A DNA stretch of 57,415 nucleotides from Parvularcula maris (lineage in GTDB: Bacteria > Pseudomonadota > Alphaproteobacteria > Caulobacterales > Parvularculaceae): NCBI RefSeq assembly GCF_024505085.1, contig NZ_JANIBC010000012.1:1-57415 (forward strand), read 5' to 3'. Position numbers and translations under genes: made by a program. Below the pieces are notes generated by a model. It saw nothing but the letters and a program-made list of their open reading frames with translations. It searched no databases and was not told where the DNA came from. Shown in pieces: positions 16,421 to 53,868 of the stretch. Each line of letters begins with the position of its first letter. Positions within the stretch are counted from its first letter, which is position 1.

Positions 16421-16449
16421 TTGACAAAGCATGTTAGCGCTCACTTACT
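16421..16449 (+). promoter_or_regulatory. Candidate promoter of the uxaC operon
   Basis: A perfect -35 TTGACA at 16421-16426 is followed after 17 bases by a weak -10, CTTACT. The operator at 16432 fills the spacer, a position where a repressor would block RNA polymerase. It lies 70 bases upstream of the uxaC start. Confidence 0.5.
16432..16445. promoter_or_regulatory. LacI-type operator 1 (manD / uxaC)
   Basis: TGTTAGCGCTCACT, two mismatches to the consensus TGTTAGCGCTAACA built from the eight copies in this window. It lies between the divergent manD (start 16406) and uxaC (start 16519) and can serve both. The sequence is identical to the site at 45570. Confidence 0.75.
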
Positions 16450-16518
16450 GGCGAGGTTCGCCGCCCGAAGACAGGCCGTCAAGAGAGCACCTGCAGCGCG
16501 GACAGGAGGAGTGACCCT

Positions 16519-17931
16519 TTGAAGCTGACCCTTCACCCCGACCGGCTGTTCCCGGCCGAGGAGCGGACGCGCCGCATCGCGCGCGGGCTCCATGAAGGGG
16601 TGCGGGACCTGCCGATCGTCTCGCCGCACGGGCACACGGACCCGGCCTGGTTCGCGCTGAACGAGCCCTTCCCCGATCCGGCGCGGCTGCTGATCACCCC
16701 CGACCACTATGTGCTGCGGATGCTCTACAGCCAGGGCGTGAGGCTCGAGGATATGGGCATCCCGCCCCTAGACGGTGGTCCGCATGAGGAGGACGGGGGG
16801 GCCATCTTTCGTCTGTTTGCGAAGCACTACCACCTCTTTCGCGGCACGCCGTCGCGCATGTGGCTCGACTGGGTGCTGGGCGAGGTCTTCGGCTGCGAGG
16901 AGGTGCTGGAGGAGGCCAACGCCGACGGGGTCTACGCGCTGGTGGACGACGCGCTGCGCCGGCCCGCCTTCCTGCCGCGGAGCCTCTATGAGCGCTTCGG
17001 CATCGAGGTGCTGGCCACGACGGAAGGGGCGCTCGACGAGCTCGTCCATCACCGCGCGCTTGGGGAGAGCGGCTGGAAGGGGCGGGTCATCACCACTTAC
17101 CGCCCCGACGATGTGATCGACCCGGACAATTCGTGCTTCGCGGCAAACCTCCGCCGCTTCGGCGAGCTGACAGGGCAGGACACGCTGAGCTGGCAGGGAT
17201 ATCTCGAAGCGCACAGGGTCAGGCGTGCTTACTTCCGCGAGGTCGGAAGCGCGACCGCCACCGATCACGGGCACCCCACCACGCGGACGGCGAACCTGCC
17301 CGAGGCGGACGCTGAGGCGCTGTTCGGCCGCGTCTCGAAGGGCGGGTCGTCGAAGGCGGACGCCGAGCTCTTCCGTGCCCAGATGCTGACCGAGATGGCG
17401 CGGATGAGCCTTGCGGACGGCATGACCATGCAGATCCATCCGGGCGTCGCGCGAAGCCACAACCCGGCGGTCGCCTCCCGCTTCGGCCCCGACAAGGGCG
17501 GCGACATCCCTTTGCAGACGGATTATGTCTCGGCACTGGCGCCGCTTCTGGCCGAAGTCGGGAACGAGCCTGATCTCAACATCATCCTCTTCACCCTCGA
17601 CGAGGACACCTATGCCCGCGAGCTGGCGCCCCTGGCCGGGCACTACCCCGCCCTCCTCCTCGGGCCGCCCTGGTGGTTCCACGACAGCCCCGAAGGCATG
17701 CGAAGGTTCCGTGAGCGGACGACAGAGACCGCCGGTTTCTACAACACCGCCGGGTTCAACGACGATACGAGGGCATTCCTCTCCATCCCCGCCCGGCACG
17801 ACGTGGCGAGGCGGATGGACTGCGGCTGGCTGGCGCAGCTCGTCGCCGAGCACCGGCTGGGGGAGGCAGAGGCCCATGACGTGGCGCGAGACCTCGCCTA
17901 CGGTCTCGCCAAAGCCGCCTACAGGCTCTGA
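16519..17931 (+). CDS. uxaC: Glucuronate isomerase
   Basis: A 470-residue amidohydrolase-superfamily enzyme, the usual UxaC length. It begins LTLHPDRLFPAE and has the metal motif SPHGHTDPAWF near residue 36, LYERFGIEVLATTEGALDEL, and the C-terminal SIPARHDVARRMDCGWLA. UxaC converts D-glucuronate to D-fructuronate (and galacturonate to tagaturonate) in the cytoplasm. The start codon is TTG, chosen because AGGAGG stands upstream at normal spacing and no ATG fits. First gene of uxaC-dctPQM-uxuB-Gfo, with overlaps or tiny gaps throughout. Glucuronate is what GH115 releases from xylan side chains. Confidence 0.94.
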   Translation: MKLTLHPDRLFPAEERTRRIARGLHEGVRDLPIVSPHGHTDPAWFALNEPFPDPARLLITPDHYVLRMLYSQGVRLEDMGIPPLDGGPHEEDGGAIFRLFAKHYHLFRGTPSRMWLDWVLGEVFGCEEVLEEANADGVYALVDDALRRPAFLPRSLYERFGIEVLATTEGALDELVHHRALGESGWKGRVITTYRPDDVIDPDNSCFAANLRRFGELTGQDTLSWQGYLEAHRVRRAYFREVGSATATDHGHPTTRTANLPEADAEALFGRVSKGGSSKADAELFRAQMLTEMARMSLADGMTMQIHPGVARSHNPAVASRFGPDKGGDIPLQTDYVSALAPLLAEVGNEPDLNIILFTLDEDTYARELAPLAGHYPALLLGPPWWFHDSPEGMRRFRERTTETAGFYNTAGFNDDTRAFLSIPARHDVARRMDCGWLAQLVAEHRLGEAEAHDVARDLAYGLAKAAYRL

Positions 17932-17934
17932 GCG

Positions 17935-18927
17935 GTGGCTAGCAGCTTCACGCGGCGCTCCGCCGTGGCAGGCCTGAGCCTCGCCGGGCTGGCAGGGTGC
18001 GGCGAGACGGAGCGGCCCCTTTGGGCGGCAGATGCGCAGCCTGCGAACTACCCCACGGTCGAGGCGCTCCGCCACTTCGCCGCGACGTTGGAAAAGCTCA
18101 CGGGCGACGAGCTCCGCATCAAGATCTATCCGGGCGCGCAGCTCGGCCCAGAGCGGGATACGCTGGAGATGACCATCTTCGGTGGTCTCGACATCAACAG
18201 GGTCAACACGGCGCCCTTGAACCCGATCGCCGAGGAGACCATCGTCCCCGCCCTACCCTTCGTCTTCAGCTCCATCCGGCATATGAGGGCGTGCATGGAT
18301 GGGGAGCCGGGGCGGCACATCCTCGAGGCGCTGGAACCCGCGGGCCTCAAGGGCCTCTGCTTCTACGATTCGGGTGCGCGGAGCTTCTACAACTCGCGCC
18401 GCCCCGTCCTTGAGCCTTCGGACCTCCAGGGCCTGAAGATCAGGGTGCAGAACTCCGATCTCTATGTCGCGACCATGAAGGCGCTGGGCGCCAGCGCCAC
18501 GCCGATGAGCTTCTCGGAGGTCTACCAGGCACTCGTCCAGAAGGTGATCGACGGGGCGGAGAACAACTGGCCCTCCTATGAGAGTACGAGGCATTTCGAG
18601 GCGGCGCCCTTCTACTCGCTGACCCAGCACATCATGGCGCCGGAGGTGCTGGTCATGTCGATGAGGCGCTGGCGCCTTCTGACCGACGATCAGCGGGCGG
18701 CGGTCCTGGAAGCCGCCCGCCAGTCCGTGCCGGTGATGCGGCGAATCTGGGACGCGCGGGTCGAGACGAGCCGAAAGATTGTTCTGGGCGCTGGGGTCAC
18801 GGTGAACGACATCTCGGACAAGTCGCTGTTCAGGTCCAAGGTCCAGCCCGTCTATGAGCGCTTCATCAACCGTAAGCTCATACCCCTGGTCGAGCTGATC
18901 GGCGATACGGCGGTGCCTCTTGGCTAG
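17935..18927 (+). CDS. dctP: TRAP transporter substrate-binding protein (DctP family), probable hexuronate binder
   Basis: A 330-residue DctP-type solute-binding protein. The N-terminus has twin arginines (FTRRSAVAG) and a lipobox-like GLAGC, suggesting Tat export and lipidation. The family signatures FYDSGARSFYNSRRPV and ALGASATPMSFSEVYQAL are present; the conserved Arg in DLQGLKIRVQ is the usual carboxylate contact. It starts with GTG, 3 bases after uxaC. Uronate-binding TRAP proteins are well known, and the neighbours (uxaC, uxuB) make glucuronate or aldouronate the likely ligand. Confidence 0.9.
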   Translation: MASSFTRRSAVAGLSLAGLAGCGETERPLWAADAQPANYPTVEALRHFAATLEKLTGDELRIKIYPGAQLGPERDTLEMTIFGGLDINRVNTAPLNPIAEETIVPALPFVFSSIRHMRACMDGEPGRHILEALEPAGLKGLCFYDSGARSFYNSRRPVLEPSDLQGLKIRVQNSDLYVATMKALGASATPMSFSEVYQALVQKVIDGAENNWPSYESTRHFEAAPFYSLTQHIMAPEVLVMSMRRWRLLTDDQRAAVLEAARQSVPVMRRIWDARVETSRKIVLGAGVTVNDISDKSLFRSKVQPVYERFINRKLIPLVELIGDTAVPLG

Positions 18928-19435
18928 GCTGCATGACGCACTTCGGTTCGTGGGCCGGTTCAGCCAGACGCTGTCGCGGCTTTGCCTGTGGGTGAGCGGG
19001 TTCGGGCTGTGCGCGATGACCCTCGTCATCCTGTGGCAGGTCATCGGCCGCTACGTCTTCGGGGACGCGCCGTCCTGGTCCGAACAGCTCTCGCTCTACC
19101 TCCTTCTGTGGTCGGTGCTTCTGGCGTCCGCAGCCGGTGTGCGGGAGGGCTTCCATATCCGCATCACGGCGGGTCAGGACCGATTGCCAAGCGATGCGCG
19201 AAAACCGCTCCTACTGCTGATTGACGCTTTGGTTCTGTGCCTGGGCGTCGCGCTTCTCGTTCTCGGGGCGGACCTCGTCAGACGGCTGTGGCCTAACACG
19301 ATCCCCACCCTCGGCCTGCCGCGCGGCTCCGCCTTCATCCCCATGGCGGTGAGCGGCGCGCTGATCGCGCTCTTCGCCGCCGAGAAGATGGCTGGTCGCT
19401 TCGTCGGCAGAAACGTCGAGGCGTCATGGCCCTGA
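18920..19435 (+). CDS. dctQ: TRAP transporter small permease (DctQ family)
   Basis: A 171-residue membrane protein with four hydrophobic segments (around residues 23-42, 55-72, 95-118 and 135-155). It has the DctQ pattern VILWQVIGRYVFGDAPSWSEQLSLYLLLW. It is the small membrane subunit of the TRAP system. It begins with TTG inside the last eight bases of dctP, so the two are translationally coupled. Confidence 0.88.
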   Translation: MARLHDALRFVGRFSQTLSRLCLWVSGFGLCAMTLVILWQVIGRYVFGDAPSWSEQLSLYLLLWSVLLASAAGVREGFHIRITAGQDRLPSDARKPLLLLIDALVLCLGVALLVLGADLVRRLWPNTIPTLGLPRGSAFIPMAVSGALIALFAAEKMAGRFVGRNVEASWP

Positions 19436-20706
19436 CCGTCCTCTTTCTCGCCCTTGGGCTCCTCCTTATCCTCGGCGTGCCGGTAGCGTTCGCGCTTCTC
19501 GGCGCCTCGCTTCTCACCTTCCTTCTGCTCGACATCCCGCCGATCATCGCGGCGCAGCGTTTCGCCTCCAGCATCAATATCTTCTCCTTGATGGCCATTC
19601 CCTTCTTCGTCTTCGCAGGGGAGCTGATGTACCGTGCAGGGATAGCCGAGCGACTGATCCGCGTCGCCGACGCGCTGATGGGGGGGACGCGAGGGGGGCT
19701 GGGGCAAGTCAATGTCGGCGCCTCGATGATGTTCGGCGCCATATCGGGATCGGCGGTGGCCAGCGTCTCCGCCCTGGGATCGGCCATGATCCCGATGATG
19801 GAGGAGAAGGGCTACGGCCGCGACTACGCCGTGAACGTCACCTCCACCGCCGCCATCCTCGGCGTGGTCATCCCGCCCTCGCACAACATGATCATCTACG
19901 CCGCCGCCTCGGGGGTGAGCGTGTCGATCGGCGAACTCTTCATCGCAGGGCTCCTCCCTGGGCTGACGGCAGGGGGCATGCTGTGCCTTGCCGCGTGGCT
20001 CGTGGCGCGCAGGCGCGGCTATGCGAAGGGCGCCTTCCCCGGCTGGCGCGTGCTGCTAAGGGCCGCCGCCGCTGCGCTGCCTGGGCTACTGACGGCGGTG
20101 ATCATCGTGGTCGGCATTCTCGCAGGCATCTTCACCCCGACCGAGAGCGCGGCGGTCGCGGTGGCCTATACCGTGCTGATCGGCGCCTTCGGCTACCGTA
20201 GCCTGGGGCTTCGTGAGTTCGGGCTGGCGGTGACGGGGGCAGTCCGGACGACGGCGATGATCATGTTCATCATCGGCGCGGCGGGGGCGTTCGGCTGGCT
20301 GCTCGCCATTCTGGAAGCGCCCGCCATGATCGCGGCGGGCATCACTTCCCTGTCGGATGAACCAGCCGTCATCCTACTGATGGTCATCGCGGCGCTTCTG
20401 GTCCTCGGCACCTTCATGGACATGGCGCCGCTGATCGTCATCACCACACCGATCTTCCTGCCCGTGCTGATGGAAGCAGGTTTCGACCCCGTGCAGTTCG
20501 GCATCGTTATGATGCTGGCCCTCGGCATCGGCCTCGTCACCCCGCCCGTGGGCGCGGTGCTCTTCGTCGGCACGGCCATCGGACGCATCCGGATCGAGGA
20601 CACGGTCAGGACCATCTGGCCCTTCTACCTCGCGCTTTTGGCGGCGCTCCTCCTCACGGCCTATGTACCCGCTTTGACCCTCCTTCTTCCAGGTCTCCTG
20701 TCATGA
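19426..20706 (+). CDS. dctM: TRAP transporter large permease (DctM family)
   Basis: A 426-residue integral membrane protein with about twelve segments. Family blocks include SLMAIPFFVFAGELM, MFGAISGSAVASVSALGSAMIPMM and VIPPSHNMIIYA. The C-terminus has MMLALGIGLVTPPVGAVLFV. It forms the sodium-coupled channel of the TRAP transporter. It overlaps dctQ by 10 bases and uxuB by 4. Confidence 0.93.
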   Translation: MALTVLFLALGLLLILGVPVAFALLGASLLTFLLLDIPPIIAAQRFASSINIFSLMAIPFFVFAGELMYRAGIAERLIRVADALMGGTRGGLGQVNVGASMMFGAISGSAVASVSALGSAMIPMMEEKGYGRDYAVNVTSTAAILGVVIPPSHNMIIYAAASGVSVSIGELFIAGLLPGLTAGGMLCLAAWLVARRRGYAKGAFPGWRVLLRAAAAALPGLLTAVIIVVGILAGIFTPTESAAVAVAYTVLIGAFGYRSLGLREFGLAVTGAVRTTAMIMFIIGAAGAFGWLLAILEAPAMIAAGITSLSDEPAVILLMVIAALLVLGTFMDMAPLIVITTPIFLPVLMEAGFDPVQFGIVMMLALGIGLVTPPVGAVLFVGTAIGRIRIEDTVRTIWPFYLALLAALLLTAYVPALTLLLPGLLS

Positions 20707-22187
20707 CCCTGCGCCTCTCATCCGTCAGCATAGGACAGGCACGCGAGGGCGTGCAGCTTCCTTCCTATGACCGCCGATTGCTCAAGCCGCGCATGGTGCA
20801 TCTCGGTATCGGCGCCTTTCACCGAGCCCACCAGGCGGTCTATACGGACGATGTCCTCGAGGAGGGCGGCGACTGGGGGTCGGTGGGGGTGAGCCTGCGC
20901 AGCGACGGCGTCACCCGCCAGCTCTCTCCCCAGGACGGGCTCTTCTCGGTCGCGGTGCGCGACGGGGAGGAACGCCTGCGGGTGATCGGCAGCAACATCG
21001 CCGCGCTCTTCGCCCCCCAGAGCCCCGAACGGGTGCTAGCCCTGATGAGCGCGGAAACCTGCCATGTGGTGACGTTGACCGTCACGGAGAAAGGCTACGG
21101 CCTCGACCCTTCGAGCGGCAAGCTTCTGGTGGACCGAGGTGACATCGCCAGTGACTTGGCGCACCCGCACCGGCCCACAACGCCCATCGGCTACATCGCC
21201 GAGGCCCTGAGGCGGAGACGGCAGGCCGGATACCGTCCGTTCACCGCTCTTTCCTGCGACAACCTCTCTTGCAACGGCGGAAAGCTGCGCGAGGCGGTCA
21301 TTCAGTACACGCAGCTATGTGAACCGGTGCTCGCCAGCTGGATCGAGGCCGAGGGCGCCTTCCCCTCCACCATGGTGGACCGGATCGTACCGGCCACCAC
21401 CCCTGATGATCTGGACACGGCAAAGGCCAAGCTGGGCCTTCGCGACGAGGGGTTCGTCGCCACCGAAGCTTTCACCCAATGGGTGATCGAGGACCGGTTC
21501 TGCGGCCCCAGGCCCGCATGGGAGCGCGCAGGCGCGGTGTTCTCTTCCGAGGTGCAACGGTTTGAGGCGATGAAGCTGCGCCTTCTCAACGGTCCGCACT
21601 CGGCCATTGCCTATCTTGGCTGCCTCAAGGAGCTTCCCTTCGTACACGACGTGATGAACGATGCCTATCTCGGGCGCTATGTCGAGCGTCTGATGGAGGA
21701 CGAGATCGCCCCGGTCGTCCGCGGACCATCCGGTTTCGACCTCTCCTCCTACACTCTTGAGCTACGCCAGCGCTTCCGCAACCCCTCTCTTCAGCACCGC
21801 ACCTCTCAGATTGCGATGGACGGCAGCCAGAAGCTGCCCCCTCGCCTCCTCAGCACGATCGCCGACAACCTCGCCGCGCGGCGGCCGTTCCGCAGGCTAG
21901 CCACCGCGGTGGCTGCATGGATCGCCTATGCTTCGGGCAGCGGCCCGGCCGGTCTGGACGACATCGACGACCCGATCGCGAAGCAGCTTCGCACGGCCGC
22001 TGAGAAGGGAGGGGGGCGGACAGACGACCTCCTCTCGGCCTTTCTCGATCTTCAAAGCGTGTTCGGCAGCGACCTTCCGCGCTCTTCCGTCTTCAGGCAG
22101 TCTATCGAAGAACCCTTGAAGCTGCTTCTGACCGAAAACTGGACTGCCCTTCGGCGGTGGACGGAGAATGAGGAGGACCAGAGATGA
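20703..22187 (+). CDS. uxuB: Mannitol dehydrogenase family protein, probable D-mannonate oxidoreductase (fructuronate reductase)
   Basis: A 494-residue long-chain secondary alcohol dehydrogenase. The NAD-binding start HLGIGAFHRAHQAVYTDDVL is at residues 32-51. The catalytic region is MKLRLLNGPHSAIAYLG near 290, where Lys is the proton donor and the Asn-His pair is conserved. The family covers mannitol, fructuronate and tagaturonate reductases. Here, between uxaC and genes for the later steps, reduction of fructuronate to mannonate is by far the most likely reaction. It is coupled to dctM by ATGA and to the next gene by ATGA. Confidence 0.88.
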   Translation: MTLRLSSVSIGQAREGVQLPSYDRRLLKPRMVHLGIGAFHRAHQAVYTDDVLEEGGDWGSVGVSLRSDGVTRQLSPQDGLFSVAVRDGEERLRVIGSNIAALFAPQSPERVLALMSAETCHVVTLTVTEKGYGLDPSSGKLLVDRGDIASDLAHPHRPTTPIGYIAEALRRRRQAGYRPFTALSCDNLSCNGGKLREAVIQYTQLCEPVLASWIEAEGAFPSTMVDRIVPATTPDDLDTAKAKLGLRDEGFVATEAFTQWVIEDRFCGPRPAWERAGAVFSSEVQRFEAMKLRLLNGPHSAIAYLGCLKELPFVHDVMNDAYLGRYVERLMEDEIAPVVRGPSGFDLSSYTLELRQRFRNPSLQHRTSQIAMDGSQKLPPRLLSTIADNLAARRPFRRLATAVAAWIAYASGSGPAGLDDIDDPIAKQLRTAAEKGGGRTDDLLSAFLDLQSVFGSDLPRSSVFRQSIEEPLKLLLTENWTALRRWTENEEDQR

Positions 22188-23371
22188 GCATCAGATGGAC
22201 GAGGCGCGGTACGCTCCTGGCTGCGGGCGCCGCCCTGACCACGGGCGCAGAATCCGGGGCCAGCATGTTGCAGGACACCGGGCCTCAGGCGGCCGGTCAG
22301 CCCTTCCCCCAGGGCGTCAAGCTGCCGCGGTCCTGGGAACAACCCCCCTCATCGGGCAGGATCGGCATCGCGGTGGTGGGCCTCGGGCGCTACGCTTTGG
22401 CGCGCATGATGCCGGCCTTCGCTGAAAGCCGCCTCTGCCGCATCGCCGGTCTCGTGTCGGGCAACCGGCAGAAGGCAGCGAGGGTGGCTGACGCCTACGG
22501 ACTGAAGAGCGATCAGATCTACAGCTATGACAGCTTCGACCGGCTCGCCGAGGACGACCGGATCGACGCGGTCTACATCGTCCTCCCCAGCGGTCTCCAT
22601 GCGGAGTGGACCGAGAAGGCTTTCGCCGCGGGCAAGCACGTGCTCTGCGAGAAGCCCATGGCCCTCTCGCCTTCCGAGTGCGAGCGGATGATTGCTGCCT
22701 CGAAGGCAGCGGACCGCAAGCTGATGATCGCCTATCGCTGCCATTTCGAGCCCTACAACCTCAAGCTCATGGAGCTGATGCGTGAGGGCGCGATCGGCGA
22801 GCTGCGTACCATCAGGACCAACCATCAGTACAAGGCCGGCATGGCGACGCCCCAGACCAACTGGCGGCTGAACAGGCGTCTTGCGGGGGGCGGGCCGCTC
22901 GAGGACTACGGCCTATACGGCCTTCAGGCCTCGCTCTACATCAGTGGCCAGATGCCCGAGCGGATCAGTGCGAGCGTGATGCGGCCAGAAGGCGATGCGC
23001 GCTTTCAGGAGATCGCTGCGCACACCGCCTCTCAGCTCACCTTTCCGGGCGGAGCGGCGGCGCAGCTTTCGACCTCCTATGACGCGGCCGGTCTGAACCG
23101 GCTCGACATCTTCGGCAGCGAGGGCCGGATCGTGATGGAGCCGGGCACCTCCTATGGCGGTCAGACCATGACGCTGAGCCGCGGACAGGGGTCCGAGACC
23201 CTCACCCCCGGCGACCCGCAGGTGCAGTTCGCCGGGCAGCTTGACCATTTCGCGGAAGCCGTCCGCGAGGGAACGCCCATCAAGACGCCGGGCGAGATAG
23301 GCCTTCGTGACAGCCGTCTGATCGAAGCGATCTACCGAGCCGCAGCCACCGGTCGTTCCGTCGAGATCTAG
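22184..23371 (+). CDS. Gfo/Idh/MocA oxidoreductase with Tat signal
   Basis: A 395-residue oxidoreductase. A twin-arginine leader (WTRRGTLLAAGAAL) is followed by a linker and a Rossmann domain (IAVVGLGRYALARMM near residue 64). The Gfo/Idh hallmark CEKPMALSPSEC is at about 155-166, and GGGPLEDYGLYGLQASLYI supplies the usual catalytic Asp/Tyr region. It resembles periplasmic glucose-fructose or aldose oxidoreductases that carry bound NADP. The substrate is unknown; being last in the uronate operon and exported, it may oxidise or reduce a xylan-derived aldose, perhaps making the lactone for the lactonase at 11250. That link is speculation. Confidence 0.82.
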   Translation: MSIRWTRRGTLLAAGAALTTGAESGASMLQDTGPQAAGQPFPQGVKLPRSWEQPPSSGRIGIAVVGLGRYALARMMPAFAESRLCRIAGLVSGNRQKAARVADAYGLKSDQIYSYDSFDRLAEDDRIDAVYIVLPSGLHAEWTEKAFAAGKHVLCEKPMALSPSECERMIAASKAADRKLMIAYRCHFEPYNLKLMELMREGAIGELRTIRTNHQYKAGMATPQTNWRLNRRLAGGGPLEDYGLYGLQASLYISGQMPERISASVMRPEGDARFQEIAAHTASQLTFPGGAAAQLSTSYDAAGLNRLDIFGSEGRIVMEPGTSYGGQTMTLSRGQGSETLTPGDPQVQFAGQLDHFAEAVREGTPIKTPGEIGLRDSRLIEAIYRAAATGRSVEI

Positions 23372-23516: not shown

Positions 23517-23544
23517 TTGCCAACCATCTCTTGTCGCGTATAGG
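23517..23544 (+). promoter_or_regulatory. Candidate promoter of the GH115 gene
   Basis: TTGCCA (23517-23522), a 16-base spacer and TATAGG (23539-23544) form a plausible sigma-70 promoter. The operator at 23543 begins on its -10 box. The rest of the gap 23372-23663 holds no gene or clear terminator. Confidence 0.5.
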
Positions 23545-23556
23545 TTAGCGCTAACA
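23543..23556. promoter_or_regulatory. LacI-type operator 2 (GH115)
   Basis: GGTTAGCGCTAACA, one mismatch to the consensus and almost a perfect palindrome. It lies 108 bases upstream of the chosen GH115 start and overlaps the -10 of the candidate promoter. Confidence 0.82.
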
Positions 23557-26285: not shown

Positions 26286-27347
26286 CTAGGGCTTGTTCCC
26301 TCTACCGAATATTTGTCTCAGCTTGGCCGTCTGCATTCCTGCGGCCTGGGTGAGAGTCGCCCATAGGTGGAGGCGGCTGCGCTCGTCATGGACGCCCAGC
26401 GCCCCTCTGGCGGCAGGCGGCAGATGCGCCACCGGGTCGCCATGGGACCCGAAGGCGTAGTAGCCGAAGACATGCCGCCAGATGTCCCGCTGCCGGTCCG
26501 GCATGTCCCTTATGGCGAGGACGGTATGCAGCAGCGCGTCGTAGGGCGAGCCGAGGTCCGCCCGGCTGTCGTTCCACCAGTAGTTCAGAAGAATGTTGAA
26601 CCCGTCCAAAGAGCGGATGTGGTGCCACCAGAAATACGGGATGTAGATCGCATCCCCCGGCTCCAGCACGGCGCGGCGGGCGCGGCTCATCGCCTCGGCG
26701 AAGCGCGGATATCTGGCGTGGTCCGGATCGTCCAGATCCACCATGCTGACGGGCGGTCCGGCGAGCGTGTGCTCGAAGGGGCCGGGATAGAGGTTCGCAA
26801 GCTGCTCCGGCGGGAAGAGGATGAACTCACGCCTGCCGGCCGCGACCACGGCGAGGTTCTCCTTGAGGTCGAAATGGGTCTGCACCCTCAGTGGGCCGCC
26901 TATCCAGATGCGAGGGGCGACGCCCTCGGGCGCCAGGCCTGCCGGGTTGTCCCGCTCCAGGCCGGGCAGATGTTCCGCAACGGGCACGGACTGAACGTAG
27001 ACGGATCCTCTATCTGCGGAAACCTCCGAGGTGATGGCGTGGAGGGCGGCGGCGATGGTCGAGGGTCTCTTCTCGAAGTTGAGGCCGGTCAGGTCCTCAC
27101 TATAGAAGAAGCGCCCCTTGATCGACGGGTCGCCGAAGACGGTTTCGACCTGGTGTCCCCGATCCCATCCAGCAACGTAGCGCGCCGCAGACTGATGGCC
27201 CTGCCGTGCGGCCTGGCAGATGGGCCAGTTCCCGAACTGTCGGCGAAGCACCACGGGCAACCCCGGCTTCACTATCTCCTGCACGAAGTCCTGCCGGTCG
27301 ACGGGACCCCGTTCCTGGAGGGGAGGCAGCTCTTCGAGGTTCGGCAT
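26286..27347 (-). CDS. Cupin-like (JmjC-fold) protein associated with TonB receptors
   Basis: A 353-residue cytoplasmic protein of the cupin_8/JmjC type. Metal ligands fit an HxD...H set: THFDLKENLAVV near residue 175, and the distal His in IPYFWWHHIRSL near 245. LEPGDAIYIP precedes it. Related proteins are Fe(II)/2-oxoglutarate oxygenases, and such genes are often found beside TonB receptors and tryptophan-halogenase-like genes in sugar loci; their function is not established. The ATG at 27347 follows AGGACGG; an upstream TTG/ATG pair near 27398-27401 is possible. It lies downstream of the TonB gene past a terminator-like hairpin. Confidence 0.83.
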   Translation of the reverse strand: MPNLEELPPLQERGPVDRQDFVQEIVKPGLPVVLRRQFGNWPICQAARQGHQSAARYVAGWDRGHQVETVFGDPSIKGRFFYSEDLTGLNFEKRPSTIAAALHAITSEVSADRGSVYVQSVPVAEHLPGLERDNPAGLAPEGVAPRIWIGGPLRVQTHFDLKENLAVVAAGRREFILFPPEQLANLYPGPFEHTLAGPPVSMVDLDDPDHARYPRFAEAMSRARRAVLEPGDAIYIPYFWWHHIRSLDGFNILLNYWWNDSRADLGSPYDALLHTVLAIRDMPDRQRDIWRHVFGYYAFGSHGDPVAHLPPAARGALGVHDERSRLHLWATLTQAAGMQTAKLRQIFGRGNKP

Positions 27348-27411
27348 CTTCCGTCCTGTGAGTGAGGACGCAAACCCTACGGGATCGCGCTTCGGCATCA
27401 AGCTGCAACAT

Positions 27412-27443
27412 AAAAAAGGGTGCCGCCATTGCTGGCGACACCC
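27412..27443 (-). terminator. Intrinsic terminator after the TonB receptor gene
   Basis: On the minus strand GGGTGTCGCC, a 6-base loop and GGCGGCACCC form a 10-bp stem with one G-T pair, followed by TTTTTTA. It ends the receptor transcript 30 bases after its stop codon, so the downstream cupin gene is expressed by read-through or from its own promoter. Confidence 0.78.
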
Positions 27444-27471
27444 AGTCGACTTCCAAGTCCAGGGAGGGAGC

Positions 27472-30899: not shown

Positions 30900-30913
30900 T
30901 GTTTGCGCTATCA
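30900..30913. promoter_or_regulatory. LacI-type operator 3 (TonB receptor / halogenases)
   Basis: TGTTTGCGCTATCA has two mismatches to the consensus. It lies between the divergent TonB receptor (start 30816) and the first halogenase (start 30961). It is one of the weakest matches, but its position fits the other seven. Confidence 0.58.
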
Positions 30914-36876: not shown

Positions 36877-36882
36877 GCGCGG

Positions 36883-39803: not shown

Positions 39804-39810
39804 GCGCGGC

Positions 39811-41259: not shown

Positions 41260-41263
41260 ATCC

Positions 41264-42571: not shown

Positions 42572-42581
42572 GGAGGTGCCC

Positions 42582-45569: not shown

Positions 45570-45583
45570 TGTTAGCGCTCACT
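45570..45583. promoter_or_regulatory. LacI-type operator 5 (GH9)
   Basis: TGTTAGCGCTCACT, identical to operator 1. It lies 24 bases upstream of the GH9 start codon and 150 bases from the divergent GH3. Confidence 0.75.
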
Positions 45584-45654: not shown

Positions 45655-45668
45655 TGATAGCCCTAACA
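45655..45668. promoter_or_regulatory. LacI-type operator 6 (GH3)
   Basis: TGATAGCCCTAACA, two mismatches to the consensus. It lies 67 bases before the GH3 start at 45735. With operator 5 it makes a pair 85 bp apart in the same divergent gap, a spacing that could allow looping. Confidence 0.55.
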
Positions 45669-45734: not shown

Positions 45735-48140
45735 GTGACGACGAGAAAACGGGCAGTATCGACCACTTGGCTGAGCTCGCTGGCCATGGCGGGGGCGCTG
45801 CTCCTCGCAGTGCCGCAGGCGGACGCCATGCAGGACCGGACGGAGCAGGCCGAGCCCAGCCAGGAAGCTCTCTACAAGGACGCCTCCGCGCCCATCGAGG
45901 AGCGGGTCGAGGACCTTCTCGGCCGCATGACGCTGGAGGAGAAGCTGGCGCAGATCACCACCATCTGGAGCGAGAAGGGAAACCTCTTTGCCCAGGATGG
46001 CAGCTTCGATCCGGCCAAGGCGAGGGAGCTACATCCCGGCGGCATCGGCCATTTCGCAAGACCCAACGACCGGCAGGGCTCGTCGAGCCCGCTTGATGAG
46101 CCTTTCAGGGACGAGCGGGAGACCGTCGAGCTCGTCAACACCATCCAGCGCTACGCCGTGGAGGAGACCCGCCTCGGCATACCCGTCCTGTTCCATGAGG
46201 AGGGCCTGCACGGCTACGCCGCGCGCGGCGCCACCTCCTTCCCCCAGGCCATCGCCCTTGCCTCCACCTGGGACCCGGAGCTGATCGAGGAGGTCTACGG
46301 CGTGGTCGCCCGCGAGATCCGCGCGCGCGGCGCCCATCTCGTCCTCTCCCCCGTCATCGACGTGGCGCGGGACCCGCGCTGGGGCCGGATCGAGGAGACC
46401 TACGGCGAGGACCCCTACCTCGTCTCGGAGATCGGCGTGGCCGCCATTCGCGGCTTTCAGGGGACGGGGCTTCCCCTCGCCGACGGCAAGGTGCTCGCCA
46501 CCCTCAAGCACATGACCGGCCACGGCCAGCCCGAAAGCGGCACCAATGTCGGCCCGGCCAACATCTCCGAGCGCCTGCTGCGCGAGGTCTTCTTCCCCCC
46601 CTTCGAGGAGGCGGTAGAGCGCACCAACGTCATGTCGATCATGGCCTCCTACAACGAAATCGACGGCGTCCCCTCCCACGCCAATGACTGGCTGCTGCAG
46701 GACGTGCTGCGCGGCGAGTGGGAGTATCAGGGCGGCGTCGTCTCGGACTATTGGGGCGTGCGCGACCTCGTCACCCTCCACAATGTCGAGCCTGACCTGA
46801 AAGGCGCCGCCGTCCGTGCGCTGAAATCCGGGGTGGACTACGACCTCCCCGACGGCGACAGCTTCAAGGAGCTGCCCGCCGCCCTGGAGGAGGGCGCGAT
46901 CACCGAGGAGGAGATCGACACCGCCGTGCGCCGAATGCTGCGCATGAAGTTCGAGGCGGGCCTCTTCGAGAACCCCTATGCCGATGCGGACTACGCGGAG
47001 GAGATCACCGACAATGAAGAGGCGCGCGCACTGGCCGAGGAGGCGGCGCGGCGCTCCGTGGTGCTTCTCAAGAACGAGGGCGTGCTGCCCCTCGACAAGG
47101 CGGCCTACCAGAAGATCGCCGTAATCGGACCGAACGCGGCAGTCACGCGCCTCGGCGGCTACTCGGACGTGCCCACACGGACGATCAGCCTTCTCGATGG
47201 TCTTCGCAACGAGTTCGGCGAGGGGGCCGAGATCGTCCACCATGAAGGCGTCAAGCTGTTCGAATCGGGTGACGATTGGTGGACCAACGAACCCGTCCCT
47301 GCGGACAGGGACGCGAACCTCGCCATGATCGAGGAGGCGGCCGAGGCAGCCAGGGACGCCGACCTCGTCATCCTCGCCATCGGCGGCTCCGAGGCCACGA
47401 GCCGCGAGGCCTATGCCGCGAACCATCTCGGCGACCGCACCGATATCGAGCTCTTCGGCGAGCAGCAGGAGCTGGCCGACGCGATCTTCGACCTCGGCAA
47501 GCCGGTCGTCACGGTGCTGATCAACGGGAGGCCCCTGGGCGTCGACGAGGTGGCGGAGCGCACGGACGCTTTGGTCGAGGCCTGGTATCTCGGCCAGGAG
47601 ACCGGCACGGCGCTCGCGGACATCCTCGTCGGCAAGGCCAACCCCGGCGGCAAGCTGCCGGTCACCATCGCCAGCGATGTCGGCCAGCTCCCCCTGGTCT
47701 ACAACCGCAAGCCCAGCGCGCTTCGGGGCTACGCCTTCGGCTCGACCGAGCCTCTCTACCCCTTCGGCTACGGGCTGAGCTATACGAGCTTCGAGATCGG
47801 CGAGCCCAAGCTGCGCCGCAGCTCCATCAAGGCGGACGGCAAAGCGACGGTCTCCGTCCAGGTGCGCAACACAGGCGATCGCGAGGGTGCCGAAGTGGTC
47901 CAGCTCTATATCCGCGACAAGGTCAGCTCGGTGACCCGCCCGGTCAAGGAGCTGCGCGGCTTCCAGCGGGTGAGCCTGAAGCCCGGCCAGCGGCGCACCG
48001 TGCGCTTCGAGATCGGCCCGGAGGATCTTCGCTTCTGGAACGCCGACATGGAGCGTATCGTCGAGCCGGGCGAGTTCGAGATCATGGTCGGCTCGAGCTC
48101 CGAGGACCTGAAGACGGCAACCCTCACGGTGACGGAGTAG
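45735..48140 (+). CDS. GH3 beta-xylosidase/beta-glucosidase
   Basis: An 801-residue exported enzyme with a signal peptide (to about residue 32, PQADA) and the three-domain GH3 plan. The barrel has LFHEEGLHGYAARG and PRWGRIEETYGEDPYLV; the nucleophile Asp is at 338 in GVVSDYWGVRDL. An alpha/beta sandwich follows (VVLLKNEGVLPL, KIAVIGPNA), then a C-terminal fibronectin-III domain (GDREGAEVVQLYIRD). Given its context it most likely trims xylose from xylooligomers. The GTG start follows GGGAGGAAC. It is 5 bases before the second GH3. Confidence 0.92.
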   Translation: MTTRKRAVSTTWLSSLAMAGALLLAVPQADAMQDRTEQAEPSQEALYKDASAPIEERVEDLLGRMTLEEKLAQITTIWSEKGNLFAQDGSFDPAKARELHPGGIGHFARPNDRQGSSSPLDEPFRDERETVELVNTIQRYAVEETRLGIPVLFHEEGLHGYAARGATSFPQAIALASTWDPELIEEVYGVVAREIRARGAHLVLSPVIDVARDPRWGRIEETYGEDPYLVSEIGVAAIRGFQGTGLPLADGKVLATLKHMTGHGQPESGTNVGPANISERLLREVFFPPFEEAVERTNVMSIMASYNEIDGVPSHANDWLLQDVLRGEWEYQGGVVSDYWGVRDLVTLHNVEPDLKGAAVRALKSGVDYDLPDGDSFKELPAALEEGAITEEEIDTAVRRMLRMKFEAGLFENPYADADYAEEITDNEEARALAEEAARRSVVLLKNEGVLPLDKAAYQKIAVIGPNAAVTRLGGYSDVPTRTISLLDGLRNEFGEGAEIVHHEGVKLFESGDDWWTNEPVPADRDANLAMIEEAAEAARDADLVILAIGGSEATSREAYAANHLGDRTDIELFGEQQELADAIFDLGKPVVTVLINGRPLGVDEVAERTDALVEAWYLGQETGTALADILVGKANPGGKLPVTIASDVGQLPLVYNRKPSALRGYAFGSTEPLYPFGYGLSYTSFEIGEPKLRRSSIKADGKATVSVQVRNTGDREGAEVVQLYIRDKVSSVTRPVKELRGFQRVSLKPGQRRTVRFEIGPEDLRFWNADMERIVEPGEFEIMVGSSSEDLKTATLTVTE

Positions 48141-48145
48141 CGGCG

Positions 48146-50677
48146 ATGACGATGACCCTCAAAGGACTGCTTCTCACGACGAGCCTCGCTGCCTGCCTGT
48201 CGGCATGCGGAGAAGAGCCTTCGACCCCGACCCCCTCCGAACCTGAACCGCAAGGGCAGGCGGCATCGGCGGAAACCGCTGAGGCACCGATGGTGAACCC
48301 CGAGAACTGGCCGAAGATCACGAGCCCCGTCGACCGAGACCCGGCCATCGAGGAGGAGGCGGCGCGCCTTCTCGCCTCCATGAGCCTGGAGGAGAAGGTC
48401 GGCCAGATCATTCAGCCCGACATCGCCTCGATCACGCCGGAGGAGGCGGGCGCCTACCATATCGGCTCGGTGCTGAACGGCGGCAACTCCGCCCCCAAAG
48501 GAGAGCTTCGCGGCGACCCTGGCGACTGGGTGGCGCTGGCGGACGCCTTCTGGCGCGCCTCCACCGGCGAGGACGGCAGCGGCATCCCGCTTCTTTGGGG
48601 AACCGACGCCGTACACGGACACTCCAACATCGTCGGCGCCACGATCTTCCCGCACAATATCGGGCTTGGGGCCGCGAACGACCCAGAGCTGATGCGCAGG
48701 ATCGGCGAGATCACCGCGAAGGAGATCGCCGTCACCGGCCTCGACTGGACCTTCGCCCCCACCCTTGCCGTGCCCCAGGACGACCGATGGGGCCGGACCT
48801 ATGAGGGGTATTCGGAGGACCCGGCCATCGTCGCCTCCTTCGCCAGGCCGCTGGTCGAGGGTCTTCAGGGCAGGGCGAACACGGACGAGTTCCTCGCCCC
48901 CGGCCGCGTCCTCTCCACCGCCAAGCACTTCGTCGGCGACGGCGGCACGAGGGGCGGCACCGATCAGGGCGAGACCGTCGCCACCGAGGAGGAGCTGCGC
49001 GACATCCACGTGGCGGGCTACGTGCCGGCGCTGGAGGCAGGCGTGCAGACGGCCATGGCGTCCTTCTCGAGCTGGAACGGCCGCAAGATGCACGGCTACA
49101 AGGAGCTTCTCACCGACGTGCTGGTAGGCCAGATGGGTCTGGACGGCTTCGTCGTCGGCGACTGGAACGGACACGGACAGGTGGCGGGCTGCGAGGCGAC
49201 GGACTGCCCCCAGGCGCTTCTCGCCGGGGTCGACATGTACATGGCGCCGGATAGCTGGAAGGGCCTCTATGAAAGCACGCTCCGCCATGTGGAGGAGGGC
49301 ACCATCCCCATGGAGCGCCTCGACGAAGCGGTGCTGCGCATCCTTCGGGTGAAGCTACGCATGGGCCTGATGGAGCGGGGCCTGCCCTCCGAGCGGCCCT
49401 TTGCCGGAGAGCTCGATCTCTTAGGCTCGGACGAGCACCGCGCCGTCGCCCGCGAGGCGGTGGCCAAATCCCTGGTCCTCCTGAAGAACGAGGGCGGCGT
49501 CCTGCCCATCCGGCCAAGGCAGCGCGTCCTCATCACCGGGGACGGCGCGAACGATATGGGCAAGCAGACCGGCGGCTGGACCCTCTCCTGGCAGGGGGAC
49601 GGCAACAGCCGAGAGGACTTCCCGAACGCCGACACCATCTTCGAAGGGCTGGAGGGGGCCATCGGCGCTTCGGGCGGCGAGGCGTATCTGGACGAGATGC
49701 CGGAGGGCGAGGAGCCGGACCTTGCCGTCGTGGTCTTCGGCGAGGACCCCTATGCGGAGTTCCGGGGCGACCGGCCCAATCTCGATTTCACGCCAGAGGA
49801 GCCCCAGGCCCGGATGCGGGCGCTGAAGGAGGCGGGCATCCCGGTGGTCGCCGTCTTCCTCTCGGGACGCCCGCTCTGGACCAACCCGGAGATCAACGCC
49901 TCCGACGCCTTCGTGGCCGCCTGGTTGCCGGGGAGCGAGGGCGGCGGCGTCGCCGACGTCCTGGTGGCGGGCGAGGACGGTGAGCCGCGGGCCGACTTCA
50001 CCGGCAGGCTCTCCTTCTCCTGGCCGAAGCGCCCTGACCAGTTCCGCCTCAACCCCCAGGACGAGGACTACGACCCGCTCTTCGCCCTTGGCTACGGGCT
50101 GTCCTACGGCGAGGAGGGAACCGTCGGCACACTGCCGGAGGACTACGAGACCTCCGAAAGCGACTCCAACACGCTGATCGCCGACGGCGCGCCGGGGGCC
50201 GGAGGCGAGCTCGTCCTTCTGTCCGGCGGCGGCGAGCGCCGGATCACTGATGCGGTCGCCGAGACCCCCAACGGCGCCCTCCGCCTGTCCCGAACGGACC
50301 GCTACGCCCAGGAGGACTCGCTACGGCTCGTCTGGGACGGCTCGGCCACGGCCCGGCTAGTCCTGCGTGCGGAAGAGCGAGACCTTCGCCGCGAGGCCAA
50401 CGCGGATATCGGCCTGTCGGTCACCTACCGCTACGATGAGGCGTCGGAGGCCGAAGCCAGCGTCGGTGTCGGCGGGGCGTCCTTCCCCCTGCCGATGGGA
50501 GAAGCGGGCGGTTTCGAGACCTTTCAGGCGAGGCTCACCTGCTTCGCGGATGAGGGCGGCGACCTCTCCGCGCTTACCGATCTCATGGCGATCGAGAGCC
50601 AGGGGCCGCTCAGCCTGACGGTCTACGAGGTGGGCCTCGCCCCTTCCGAGGGCGGCGCCCCCTGCCCCGGCCAGTAG
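48146..50677 (+). CDS. GH3 exo-beta-glucosidase/xylosidase lipoprotein with extra C-terminal domain
   Basis: An 843-residue lipoprotein (LLLTTSLAACLSAC lipobox). The barrel begins MSLEEKVGQIIQPDI and carries DAVHGHSNIVGATIFPHNIG and DDRWGRTYEGYSEDP. The nucleophile Asp is at 339 in FVVGDWNGHGQ. The alpha/beta sandwich has SLVLLKNEGG and QTGGWTLSWQGDGN. Instead of fibronectin III, about 170 extra residues form a beta-rich, possibly sugar-binding domain, as in the CelD/ExoP group, which acts on beta-1,3/1,4-glucans or xylan. The ATG at 48146 is favoured over 48152. Longer in-frame readings run back through the first GH3 in a wrong frame. Confidence 0.9.
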   Translation: MTMTLKGLLLTTSLAACLSACGEEPSTPTPSEPEPQGQAASAETAEAPMVNPENWPKITSPVDRDPAIEEEAARLLASMSLEEKVGQIIQPDIASITPEEAGAYHIGSVLNGGNSAPKGELRGDPGDWVALADAFWRASTGEDGSGIPLLWGTDAVHGHSNIVGATIFPHNIGLGAANDPELMRRIGEITAKEIAVTGLDWTFAPTLAVPQDDRWGRTYEGYSEDPAIVASFARPLVEGLQGRANTDEFLAPGRVLSTAKHFVGDGGTRGGTDQGETVATEEELRDIHVAGYVPALEAGVQTAMASFSSWNGRKMHGYKELLTDVLVGQMGLDGFVVGDWNGHGQVAGCEATDCPQALLAGVDMYMAPDSWKGLYESTLRHVEEGTIPMERLDEAVLRILRVKLRMGLMERGLPSERPFAGELDLLGSDEHRAVAREAVAKSLVLLKNEGGVLPIRPRQRVLITGDGANDMGKQTGGWTLSWQGDGNSREDFPNADTIFEGLEGAIGASGGEAYLDEMPEGEEPDLAVVVFGEDPYAEFRGDRPNLDFTPEEPQARMRALKEAGIPVVAVFLSGRPLWTNPEINASDAFVAAWLPGSEGGGVADVLVAGEDGEPRADFTGRLSFSWPKRPDQFRLNPQDEDYDPLFALGYGLSYGEEGTVGTLPEDYETSESDSNTLIADGAPGAGGELVLLSGGGERRITDAVAETPNGALRLSRTDRYAQEDSLRLVWDGSATARLVLRAEERDLRREANADIGLSVTYRYDEASEAEASVGVGGASFPLPMGEAGGFETFQARLTCFADEGGDLSALTDLMAIESQGPLSLTVYEVGLAPSEGGAPCPGQ

Positions 50678-50745: not shown

Positions 50746-52164
50746 TCAGCCCACCATCTCTTCGAGCTCCAGGCCCTTGGTCTCGCGCACGGACCTGGCG
50801 ATGAAGACCGCCGAGACCACCGCGAAGAAGCAGTAGATACCGTAGGAACCGGCCAGCCCAATGCTTTCCAGCATCCGAGGAAAGGTCCAAGTGACTAGGA
50901 AATTGGCTACCCACTGGGCCAGGCCCGCCATGGCGAGAGCGCTGCCGCGGAACTGGTTGGGGAACATCTCGCCCAGCATGACCCACATGACCGGCCCCCA
51001 GCTCAGGTTGAAGATGAAGGCGTAGGCGAGCCCCGCCCCCAGCGCCGTCAGGCCCATGCCGTCGGAGAGCTGAAGCCCGCTCTCGCCCACCGTGCCCGTG
51101 GAGAAGGCGAAGGCCATGATGCCGAGGCTCACCGCCATGCCGATGGAGCCGAAGAGGAGGAACGGCTTGCGCCCGATCCGGTCGATGAAGAGGAGGCAGA
51201 GGATCACCGCCAGGATGCCCGAGCCCCCGGTCAGCACGTTCTGCAGGAGAGCGTCGGACTCGGTGAAGCCCGCCGACTGCCAGAGGACCGCGCCGTAGTA
51301 GAAGATGACGTTGATGCCGACGAGCTGCTGGAAGACGGCGAGGCCGATGCCCACCCAGACGATGGGGCGCAGCTTGCCGCCCGCAAAGATGTCCGAGAAG
51401 CGCGGCTTGTGCTGGGCGGCGAGGCTCTTCTCGATCTCGACCACCTTCTCCTTCGCGCCGCGCCGGAAAAGCCGGTCCAGGACCGAGCGGGCGTCGTCGC
51501 TGCGTCCCTTAGCCACTAGGAAGCGGGGGCTTTCGGGGATCAGGAACAAAGCACCGAGGAAGATGCCCGCCGGGATCAGCTCGACCCAGAACATCCAGCG
51601 CCAGGTCTCGTAGCCCAGCGCGAACTCCGCCGTGGAGCCCCCCGCCCTGCCCGCCAGCACGTAGTTCGACAGGAAGGCGAAGAAGAGACCTGCGACGATA
51701 GCGATCTGCTGGGTGGTGGCGAGCGCGCCGCGGTAGCGGGCCGGCGCGATCTCGGAGATATAGGCGGGCGACATGACCGAGGCGGCGCCCACGGCGAAGC
51801 CGCCGATCAGCCGGTAGATGATGAACTCGAAACTCGACCCGGCGATCCCCGATCCAAAGGCCGAGACGACGAAGAACACCGCCGCCGCGATCAGCATGGA
51901 GCGGCGGCCGAACGCATCGGCCAGGGTCCCGGCCATCAGCGCGCCGAGGGCGGCGCCTAGCAGCATCGACGCCACCGAGAACCCCGTGCCCACGGAGCTC
52001 GAGTTGAAGGCCTGCTGCAGCCCGTCCACCGTGCCGTTGATGACGCCCGAATCGAAGCCGAAGAGAAAGCCTCCCAGCGTCGCGACGAAGGCGATGGCGA
52101 TGATCGCGCCCGTCTTGGGTTCGCCCAGCGCCGTCTCGCCGGGCGCAGTTACGTGTTGGTCCAT
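50746..52164 (-). CDS. MFS sugar porter, probable xylose:H+ symporter
   Basis: A 472-residue major-facilitator protein with 12 predicted segments. Sugar-porter signatures are GFLFGFDSGVINGT in helix 1, GTLADAFGRRSML, YISEIAPARYRGAL, PESPRFLVAKGR before the central loop, GIGLAVFQQLVGINVIFYYG, and DRIGRKPFLL. The last GLELEEM is typical of the XylE/GlcP group. In this locus xylose or a xylooligomer is the likely cargo. It faces left, with operator 7 66 bases upstream of its ATG. Confidence 0.92.
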   Translation of the reverse strand: MDQHVTAPGETALGEPKTGAIIAIAFVATLGGFLFGFDSGVINGTVDGLQQAFNSSSVGTGFSVASMLLGAALGALMAGTLADAFGRRSMLIAAAVFFVVSAFGSGIAGSSFEFIIYRLIGGFAVGAASVMSPAYISEIAPARYRGALATTQQIAIVAGLFFAFLSNYVLAGRAGGSTAEFALGYETWRWMFWVELIPAGIFLGALFLIPESPRFLVAKGRSDDARSVLDRLFRRGAKEKVVEIEKSLAAQHKPRFSDIFAGGKLRPIVWVGIGLAVFQQLVGINVIFYYGAVLWQSAGFTESDALLQNVLTGGSGILAVILCLLFIDRIGRKPFLLFGSIGMAVSLGIMAFAFSTGTVGESGLQLSDGMGLTALGAGLAYAFIFNLSWGPVMWVMLGEMFPNQFRGSALAMAGLAQWVANFLVTWTFPRMLESIGLAGSYGIYCFFAVVSAVFIARSVRETKGLELEEMVG

Positions 52165-52229: not shown

Positions 52230-52243
52230 TGTTAGCGTTAGCA
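52230..52243. promoter_or_regulatory. LacI-type operator 7 (MFS porter)
   Basis: TGTTAGCGTTAGCA, two mismatches to the consensus. It lies 66 bases upstream of the MFS start, with no divergent partner gene nearby; repeat copy 3 follows at 52321. Confidence 0.65.
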
Positions 52244-52320
52244 TAACGGTCGGCACAAGACCGTGGCAGGATTGCCTCCCCTTGTCAGGAGGCAAGAGCA
52301 TAGAACTTCGCTAAAGGGCT

Positions 52321-52462: not shown

Positions 52463-52596
52463 AGCAAGCCACCAGCACCCAAAATTCCGTCTGTTTGCAA
52501 ACAATACGAACTGCGAAGGGAGGCGAAGCTAGGAGCCGACGAAGGAGCCCTCGCCCCCGGACCACCGCGCCGAAAAGACGAGCGCCGTTCCGCCCC

Positions 52597-53787
52597 CTAG
52601 CTGCGCGCCGTCGCGCCCTCGAAGGTCTCGAGGATCGCCTCGGCCATCAGGGTCGGTCTGTAATCGTCCGCAAACGGCAGCCCTCGCTTCTGAAGGCCGT
52701 CCGCCCGCTGCTGAAACGTCTGCAGCCAGGAGTAGCGGTGGACCAGGCCCCAGCACAGAACGTCCCGGAGCTGATCGAACTCGAAACAGGCCTCCAGATA
52801 GGCCTTGGTCGTGTCGGCGATCTCTTGGTCGCGGGTCTCGATGTCGGCGGAGAGTTGCTGGTCCTCGATGTCGAGTTCGGTGATGGTGAGCTCGAGCCCC
52901 ATATCCGTGACCTCCTTCAGGAACGCGCGCCAGGTAGCTTCCTCCCCGCCGCTTCGGGGTCCCCAGACATGGCTCTGCAGGCCCAGCGCGTCGATGGGCA
53001 CGCCCTTCGCCAGCATGTTCTCGAGGAGGCGCAGGACACCGGTGCGGTGGTTCTCGCTCCAAGAGTTCCAGGACATGAAGTCGTTATAGACGAGCTGCGC
53101 CGTGGGAAGCTCGGCCCTGGCGGTTCTGAAGGCGAGCTCGACGACGTTCTCCATACCTCCCAAGCGGCGTGAGAAGGGCGTCTCGCGATAGGCTCCGCTG
53201 GTGTTGTCCACGGCCTCGTTGACGACGTCCCAAGAGTAGAAGTCACTTGGCGAGCGGCGCGCCACCGTCTCGATATGATCCGTCAGCAGACGCTCCGCCT
53301 CGGCCGCCTCGTTGGTGCCCCAGTTATAGGAGGCGAACCAGTCCGGGTAGCGCTCCTCCACCTCCCACAGAAGAACGTGGAAGCGGTAGTCTATCATGTT
53401 CTGCTGTGCCCAGAGGACGAGGGTATCGCCGTTCTGCCAGCGGTATTCGGGGGGCGGATTTCTTCGGATGTCACCCCATTTGTGCTCGTTCTCGGAGACT
53501 GCGACGTTGCAGTGCTCCTGCATCAGACCGAGATAGGCGTTGTCGAGATAGGTGTCGCCCGTGAAGAAGGCAGTCCCGAAGCGCATGTTCTTCGCCGAGG
53601 CAGCAGCCTTGATCGGCGACACGCTCACCGGCGGCGGCGGCGGGGGAGGAGGAGGGGGCGGCGGCTGCGGGGGCGGTGTCTCACGGGATGGAGGGGTCGG
53701 CGACGAACCCCCGCCTCCACCGCCGCAAGCAACCAAGGGCAGTGTGGCCATCCCGGCCATGACTGATCGACGGCTGAACCGCTCCAT
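52597..53787 (-). CDS. GH10 endo-1,4-beta-xylanase with poly-proline linker
   Basis: A 396-residue second xylanase. The leader MERFSRRSVMAGMATLPLVAC has twin arginines and a lipobox. It is followed by a run of Gly, then a linker with 12 consecutive Pro that lifts the catalytic domain off the membrane. The GH10 barrel has NVAVSENEHKWGDI, the acid/base Glu in WDVVNEAVDN, and the nucleophile Glu in ITELDIEDQQL. The ATG has a perfect AGGAGG. It is related to, but distinct from, the xylanase at 38682, and is divergent from the broken GH35 gene across operator 8. Confidence 0.93.
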   Translation of the reverse strand: MERFSRRSVMAGMATLPLVACGGGGGGSSPTPPSRETPPPQPPPPPPPPPPPPVSVSPIKAAASAKNMRFGTAFFTGDTYLDNAYLGLMQEHCNVAVSENEHKWGDIRRNPPPEYRWQNGDTLVLWAQQNMIDYRFHVLLWEVEERYPDWFASYNWGTNEAAEAERLLTDHIETVARRSPSDFYSWDVVNEAVDNTSGAYRETPFSRRLGGMENVVELAFRTARAELPTAQLVYNDFMSWNSWSENHRTGVLRLLENMLAKGVPIDALGLQSHVWGPRSGGEEATWRAFLKEVTDMGLELTITELDIEDQQLSADIETRDQEIADTTKAYLEACFEFDQLRDVLCWGLVHRYSWLQTFQQRADGLQKRGLPFADDYRPTLMAEAILETFEGATARS

Positions 53788-53854
53788 GCGTCACCTCCTG
53801 CTCAGTGCGCAGCCGCTCTTGCCCGGCGGCCTCGATAGAGCTTACGCTAGCGGA

Positions 53855-53868
53855 TGTTAGCGCTAACG
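53855..53868. promoter_or_regulatory. LacI-type operator 8 (GH10 / GH35)
   Basis: TGTTAGCGCTAACG, one mismatch to the consensus at the last base, with the central ten bases a perfect palindrome. It lies between the divergent GH10 (start 53787) and GH35-like gene (start 53915). Confidence 0.82.

Follow-up and report, generated by a model that had tools for sequence, protein, structure and literature searches.

The closest described systems to the one analysed here are the XylR regulons of Xanthomonas and Caulobacter, and we compare with them a 57,415-nucleotide contig stretch of Parvularcula maris (the window), in which a first-pass annotation had proposed that eight copies of a LacI-type operator place a whole xylan locus under one switch. 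The Xanthomonas XylR is described as a LacI-type repressor that is relieved by xylose or xylo-oligosaccharides (PMC10380989, PMC13282271), and its operator, the xyl-box, is quoted from Dejean et al. as TGGTAGCGCTAACA (PMC10380989, PMC7748154). The Caulobacter XylR occupies its operator as long as xylose is absent and leaves it when the sugar is present (as cited in PMC10380989), and a 20-base-pair (bp) palindrome has been reported before the xylose genes and TonB receptors of Caulobacter and also for the xylose-induced TonB receptors of Xanthomonas (PMC1790865). Operators of the LacI family are even palindromes, mostly CG-centred and mostly located 140–30 bp before the start (PMC4052901). Our analysis suggests, with a probability of roughly 0.88, that the eight boxes of the window are operators of one LacI-family repressor, a putative XylR encoded at 42576–43724, at the end of its own operon.

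The locus shares with the Xanthomonas system a LacI-type regulator and the box itself: the site at 38608 is identical to the printed TGGTAGCGCTAACA and the seven other window boxes are variants of it, so that the likeness to the Xanthomonas xyl-box noted by the first-pass annotation is confirmed by the published sequence (PMC10380989, PMC7748154). Control of xylan TonB-receptor loci and of a xylose isomerase gene, predicted for the present locus, is likewise common to both (PMC10380989, PMC7748154, PMC13282271). The layouts differ, the Xanthomonas regulon being spread over several loci (two are named in PMC7748154) whereas the present one is a contiguous locus of ~44 kb. Unlike in Xanthomonas, GH115, GH9, GH35-like and four halogenase-family genes stand here in one stretch. 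Xanthomonas reportedly has xyl-box loci beyond the two named ones. The regulon of Caulobacter crescentus XylR resembles the present locus in having an operator palindrome that precedes its xylose genes and TonB receptors (PMC1790865). It differs in that, of the best 80 of 564 loci found in other genomes, the two from Caulobacter have no box at two or fewer mismatches. Caulobacter also oxidises xylose by the Weimberg route, whereas the present locus encodes an isomerase and a xylulokinase. Asticcacaulis belongs to the same family as Caulobacter, and there a perfect TGTTAGCGCTAACA stands just downstream of a related LacI gene and before Weimberg-like genes (named by reading the sequence). The likeness to Caulobacter thus stands on a second-hand report (PMC1790865) and on the Asticcacaulis box, but it did not extend to the two Caulobacter loci. 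The xylose activator of PMC12125979 has a DNA-binding domain of the AraC type and was set aside as a different regulator. Because box 38608 equals TGGTAGCGCTAACA, and because of the palindromes reported for Caulobacter and Xanthomonas and the Asticcacaulis TGTTAGCGCTAACA, the window system most likely belongs to the XylR/xyl-box class, in this case combined with an isomerase and a xylulokinase.

The box is a 14-mer palindrome whose consensus was drawn from the eight window sites themselves, and our scan of the window recovered all eight at the coordinates first given. Box 1 (16432–16445, TGTTAGCGCTCACT) lies between the reverse-strand manD operon and the forward-strand uxaC operon; box 2 (23543–23556, GGTTAGCGCTAACA) is upstream of a GH115 alpha-glucuronidase gene; box 3 (30900–30913, TGTTTGCGCTATCA) separates a reverse-strand TonB receptor from a forward-strand halogenase-like operon; and box 4 (38608–38621, TGGTAGCGCTAACA), the one equal to the published xyl-box, lies between a reverse-strand GH43 gene and the forward-strand GH10-xylB-xylA-xylR operon. 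Box 5 (45570–45583, again TGTTAGCGCTCACT) is upstream of a reverse-strand GH9 gene, box 6 (45655–45668, TGATAGCCCTAACA) of a forward-strand GH3-GH3 pair and box 7 (52230–52243, TGTTAGCGTTAGCA) of a reverse-strand sugar MFS transporter, while box 8 (53855–53868, TGTTAGCGCTAACG) stands between a reverse-strand GH10 and a forward-strand GH35 gene. Three sites depart from the consensus at one position and five at two, none being a perfect copy (0/8); the annotated range of zero to two mismatches therefore holds at its upper limit but not at zero. No ninth 14-mer within three mismatches exists in the window, and the genes at 167–10960, called housekeeping genes by the annotation, consequently have no box before them, as it had said. 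With start codons picked by eye from the translations, all eight boxes are fully non-coding, in a window of which 6.9% is non-coding, and lie in gaps upstream of genes as annotated; if the longest mechanical open reading frames (ORFs) are used instead, boxes 4 and 5 fall within N-terminal extensions and box 2 touches an ATG. Searching the window for Rfam families and tRNA genes gave no matches. The set is similar to the operators of LacI-family local sugar regulons (PMC4052901) in its even palindrome, its CG centre (seven of the eight boxes), its distance of 30.5–114.5 bp to the by-eye start codons and a presumed autoregulation. It differs from the general pattern in box 6, whose centre is CC, a type met again in relatives.

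A palindrome chosen as the best-looking 14-mer might be a product of chance or of the selection itself, and the consensus was indeed taken from the same eight sites. Shuffled versions of the window, however, gave 0.55 expected matches at three or fewer mismatches, and none of 100 shuffles reached eight. When the half-site was permuted to give 420 palindromes, the real one had eight matches in the window, the runner-up two and the mean was 0.10, the remaining 419 thus giving at most two each; the same box also stands beside related regulators in other genomes. We consider such an artefact barely conceivable, chance palindromes being ruled out by the permuted half-sites, the reversed controls and a matrix built from relatives only.

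The first-pass annotation had suggested a scan of the whole genome. In the 3,186,764 bases of the assembly (48 contigs, 99.45% complete), all eight matches at two or fewer mismatches fall in the xylan locus, and the reversed control gave three. At three or fewer mismatches there were 29 matches, 21 of them outside the window, against 29 for the reversed control, which is the background level. Nineteen of the 21 outside sites could be placed relative to the predictions of a crude home-made gene finder: 11 are wholly within a predicted ORF, three lie across an ORF edge and five are in no ORF, and inspection by eye of these 19 found no xylan gene adjoining any of them. A 16-column matrix was then trained on 137 boxes of other genomes, with the window excluded and one genome (G033) omitted as a near-duplicate of Aquisalinus flavus (L122). 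Within the window it ranked the eight boxes first, with scores of 20.08–23.6 and 9.85 for the ninth place, and a single simulated sequence of genome size peaked at 16.6. Outside the window the scoring covered sites with three or fewer mismatches and 50 of the 51 one-mismatch matches to a degenerate pattern; on the 16-column matrix the best of the 21 outside candidates, C3:205344, scored 18.48 and the next 11.75. The degenerate pattern with one mismatch is uninformative in itself, with 51 matches against 98 for the reversed control, and when 50 of those 51 plus the site at 52230 were scored on a 14-column matrix, C3:205344 alone approached the eight from outside the locus. The genome scan and the ranking of the eight sites by a matrix from other genomes support the one-switch regulon of the first-pass annotation, and judged by these scans the boxes are near-exclusive to the xylan locus.

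The boxes recur in other genomes alongside relatives of the candidate regulator. Of 60 other genomes searched, 14 hold a close relative of the LacI-family protein, 47–62% identical to it. Their regions, 599.5 kb in total, contain 30 boxes against 0.25 expected by simulation, distributed over 12 of the 14 regions; three of the 30 come from extra stretches of G002 and G006 that were fetched because boxes were known there. A box at one or no mismatch occurs in 13 of 15 genomes with a close XylR relative and in 11 of 46 others (Fisher P = 2.5e-5), the 15 having been cut by hand at a best-match E of ~5e-86 and including the genome studied; without it the comparison is 12 of 14 against 11 of 46. Similarly, among the best 80 of 564 named loci, found partly through the recognition-helix motif and covering 1.54 Mb, we counted 109 boxes compared with five for the reversed pattern, present in 51 and 5 of the 80 loci, respectively. 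Genes starting near these 109 boxes include MFS transporters (18), GH3a (17), XylR (14), TonB receptors (8) and XylB (7), and for another 43 starts the window contains no homologous gene.

The conservation is seen at individual promoters as well. Across 15 hand-picked promoter pairs, box identity was 10–14 of 14 positions and that of the flanks 14–33 of 80. In the congener G002, the boxes of the promoters orthologous to those of boxes 3, 4, 5 and 6 are identical at 14 of 14 positions, including their departures from the consensus, with flanks at 22–31 of 80, and the fifth promoter compared, that of GH115, has a box identical at 12 of 14. Boxes near GH115, corresponding to box 2, occur also in G006, G008 and G029 in addition to G002, with 11–12 of 14 letters in common. 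Box 3 is found at 14/14 before a TonB receptor in G002, G006, G029 and G021; box 4 is retained at 12/14 in G006 and G021, box 5 at 10/14 and box 6 at 13/14 in G006, and relatives have boxes before MFS genes as window box 7 does. Both consensus departures of box 3 and the CACA(A/G)AA just 5′ of it are kept in four relatives, and part of the asymmetry may therefore serve a promoter element. Boxes with a CC or GG centre occur in G002 and G006 at the promoters matching that of box 6, and they also lie upstream of, or close to, MFS genes in G003, G021, G033 and G015.

The LacI-family gene that the first-pass annotation had placed in the middle of the locus is present on the forward strand at 42576–43724 (predicted start), with Pfam LacI and Peripla_BP_3 domains at 70 and 125 bits. 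It begins four bases after xylA as the last gene of GH10-xylB-xylA-xylR, and it is therefore presumably autoregulated; XylB, XylA and XylR are labelled side by side in six of the 14 relatives' regions. In an alignment of the window protein with 13 of the 14 relatives (L063 from G003 omitted), the recognition helix GVSQMTVSR is the same in nine of the 13, the Q being replaced by L in three and by P in one. Relatives 43–48% identical are found among the best 80 of 564 loci in Asticcacaulis, Caulobacter, Pseudoxanthomonas and Luteimonas, and a box lies near the relative in four of four, zero of two, two of three and one of one of these loci, respectively. A search of the sequences of solved structures placed CcpA, RbsR and PurR at the top and LacI lower, and no entry named XylR was among the best 60 of 69. 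The protein at 42576–43724 is likely to be the regulator of the boxes.

Several findings weigh against this interpretation. The training boxes of the matrix were themselves chosen by likeness to the window consensus. The site C3:205344, within an ftsL-like coding sequence (named by eye), comes near the eight, scoring 18.4 on a 14-column matrix on which they score 17.27–24.71; we read it as a chance match, yet it is the sole result against strict exclusivity. Two of the 14 relatives' regions (G004 and G037) are box-free, and 29 of the 80 loci, both Caulobacter records (L166 and L196) included, have no box at two or fewer mismatches. In the relatives boxes are also found at a distance from xylR, and a box occurs in 11 of the 46 genomes that lack a close XylR relative, so other regulators may use it. 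The boxes could then be real operators recognised by a different LacI-type protein, or by two competing regulators, for example one sensing glucuronate at the uronate operons, and the locus does indeed serve two distinct substrates, xylose and glucuronate. However, the boxes of the uronate and xylose operons are alike, and just two LacI helix-turn-helix genes were found in the genome besides xylR (three in all), one in an alpha-glucosidase-like cluster and one beside a GH68-like gene (names assigned from the sequence), on contigs where the genome scan found no box at two or fewer mismatches. We therefore regard another reader of the boxes as improbable.

The boxes head 12 transcription units spanning 11.25–55.45 kb, with operons called by gene spacing and families by Pfam, the names manD and KdgK being assigned by inference. 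Promoter-like hexamers were found at just five of the 12 units in a scan run without a control, which likewise counts against the repressor reading; at the remaining units the position of the box relative to the promoter cannot be judged, and this leaves some room for XylR acting as an activator or a mixed regulator. Against that, the Xanthomonas XylR is described as a repressor of the LacI type whose effect is lifted by xylose or xylo-oligosaccharides (PMC10380989, PMC13282271), and at uxaC box 1 lies within the spacer, touching the −10 element, of the promoter-like pair TTGACA-17-CTTACT, as a repressor site might. An activating role thus appears about as improbable as a second reader, if anything slightly more so.

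Under the favoured interpretation, that of a single XylR repressor, XylR dimers without inducer would bind the palindromes at or near the promoters and keep the ~12 units off. Entering xylan fragments would release D-xylose, and D-xylose or a xylo-oligosaccharide, probably the inducer, would free XylR from the boxes, switching on xylan import, hydrolysis and the catabolism of xylose and glucuronate jointly. We infer the operon limits, the binding by the 42576–43724 protein, the repression and the inducer.

The two units predicted to be under box 1 are concerned with uronates: a presumed operon of manD, a pfkB-type sugar kinase (KdgK-like), a SASA-type esterase and an SMP-30 lactonase (11250–16406, reverse strand), and a presumed operon of uxaC, the TRAP transporter dctPQM, a fructuronate-reductase-like gene and a GFO/IDH oxidoreductase (16519–23371, forward strand). 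The GH115 alpha-glucuronidase (23664–26240, forward, Pfam 483 bits) follows box 2. Box 3 faces a TonB-dependent receptor with a Cupin_8 protein (26286–30816, reverse) on one side and the four tryptophan-halogenase-family genes (30961–36876, forward) on the other, and box 4 a beta-xylosidase-like GH43 (36883–38568, reverse) and the GH10 xylanase, xylulokinase (FGGY) and xylose isomerase genes (38682–42571, forward), with xylR next. The remaining units are a GH9 glycosidase at box 5 (43732–45546, reverse), two GH3 glycosidases at box 6 (45735–50677, forward), the MFS sugar transporter at box 7 (50746–52164, reverse) and, at box 8, a GH10 xylanase (52597–53787, reverse) and a GH35/DUF5597 gene (53915–55453, forward). 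The last contains an in-frame stop near 54776–54778 with both halves in the same frame, so that either a nonsense mutation arose recently or the sequence contains an error. Just beyond the right-hand end of the window, on the same contig and close to the locus border, lies an IS3-like transposase pair (L022:1446–2575; identified from its sequence).

The halogenase-family genes and that of the xylan TonB receptor are divergently oriented and have box 3 in common. Whether the four flavoprotein genes are dedicated parts of glucuronoxylan use is, in our estimate, evenly balanced. In G029, a halogenase gene lies downstream of a TonB receptor that has the box and is merely 24% identical, and a limited literature search on halogenases, TonB receptors and xylan listed no paper recognised as tying receptor-linked halogenases to xylan. 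The second gene of the four (32508–33827) scores 110 bits for Pfam Trp_halogenase, compared with 636, 636 and 658 bits for the others, and by eye its product does not have the W-x-W-x-I-P stretch seen in the other three, which we take to be a motif of the halogenase family; it may be a non-halogenating partner. In Pseudoxanthomonas sp. CF125, halogenase-family and Cupin_8-like genes (L163:16499–19110) are found near an XylR relative and a box.

The regulon as such is solid but expected, and what it adds to the known class is the single-locus layout and the placing of four halogenase-family genes and a receptor under one box. A ~44-kb stretch of hydrolase and transport genes can be read as a single predicted regulon, its border defined and a candidate for its regulator named, and the xyl-box known from Xanthomonas is now seen in a bacterium of the Parvularculaceae with the isomerase route. 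The predicted regulon spans xylose, glucuronate, hydrolase, transporter, TonB-receptor and halogenase-like genes. As one switch is predicted for both xylan uptake and the halogenase-family genes, the function of these genes is testable by growth on xylan, and if they do serve glucuronoxylan use, receptor-linked "tryptophan halogenases" of unknown role would be tied to one substrate and one inducer.

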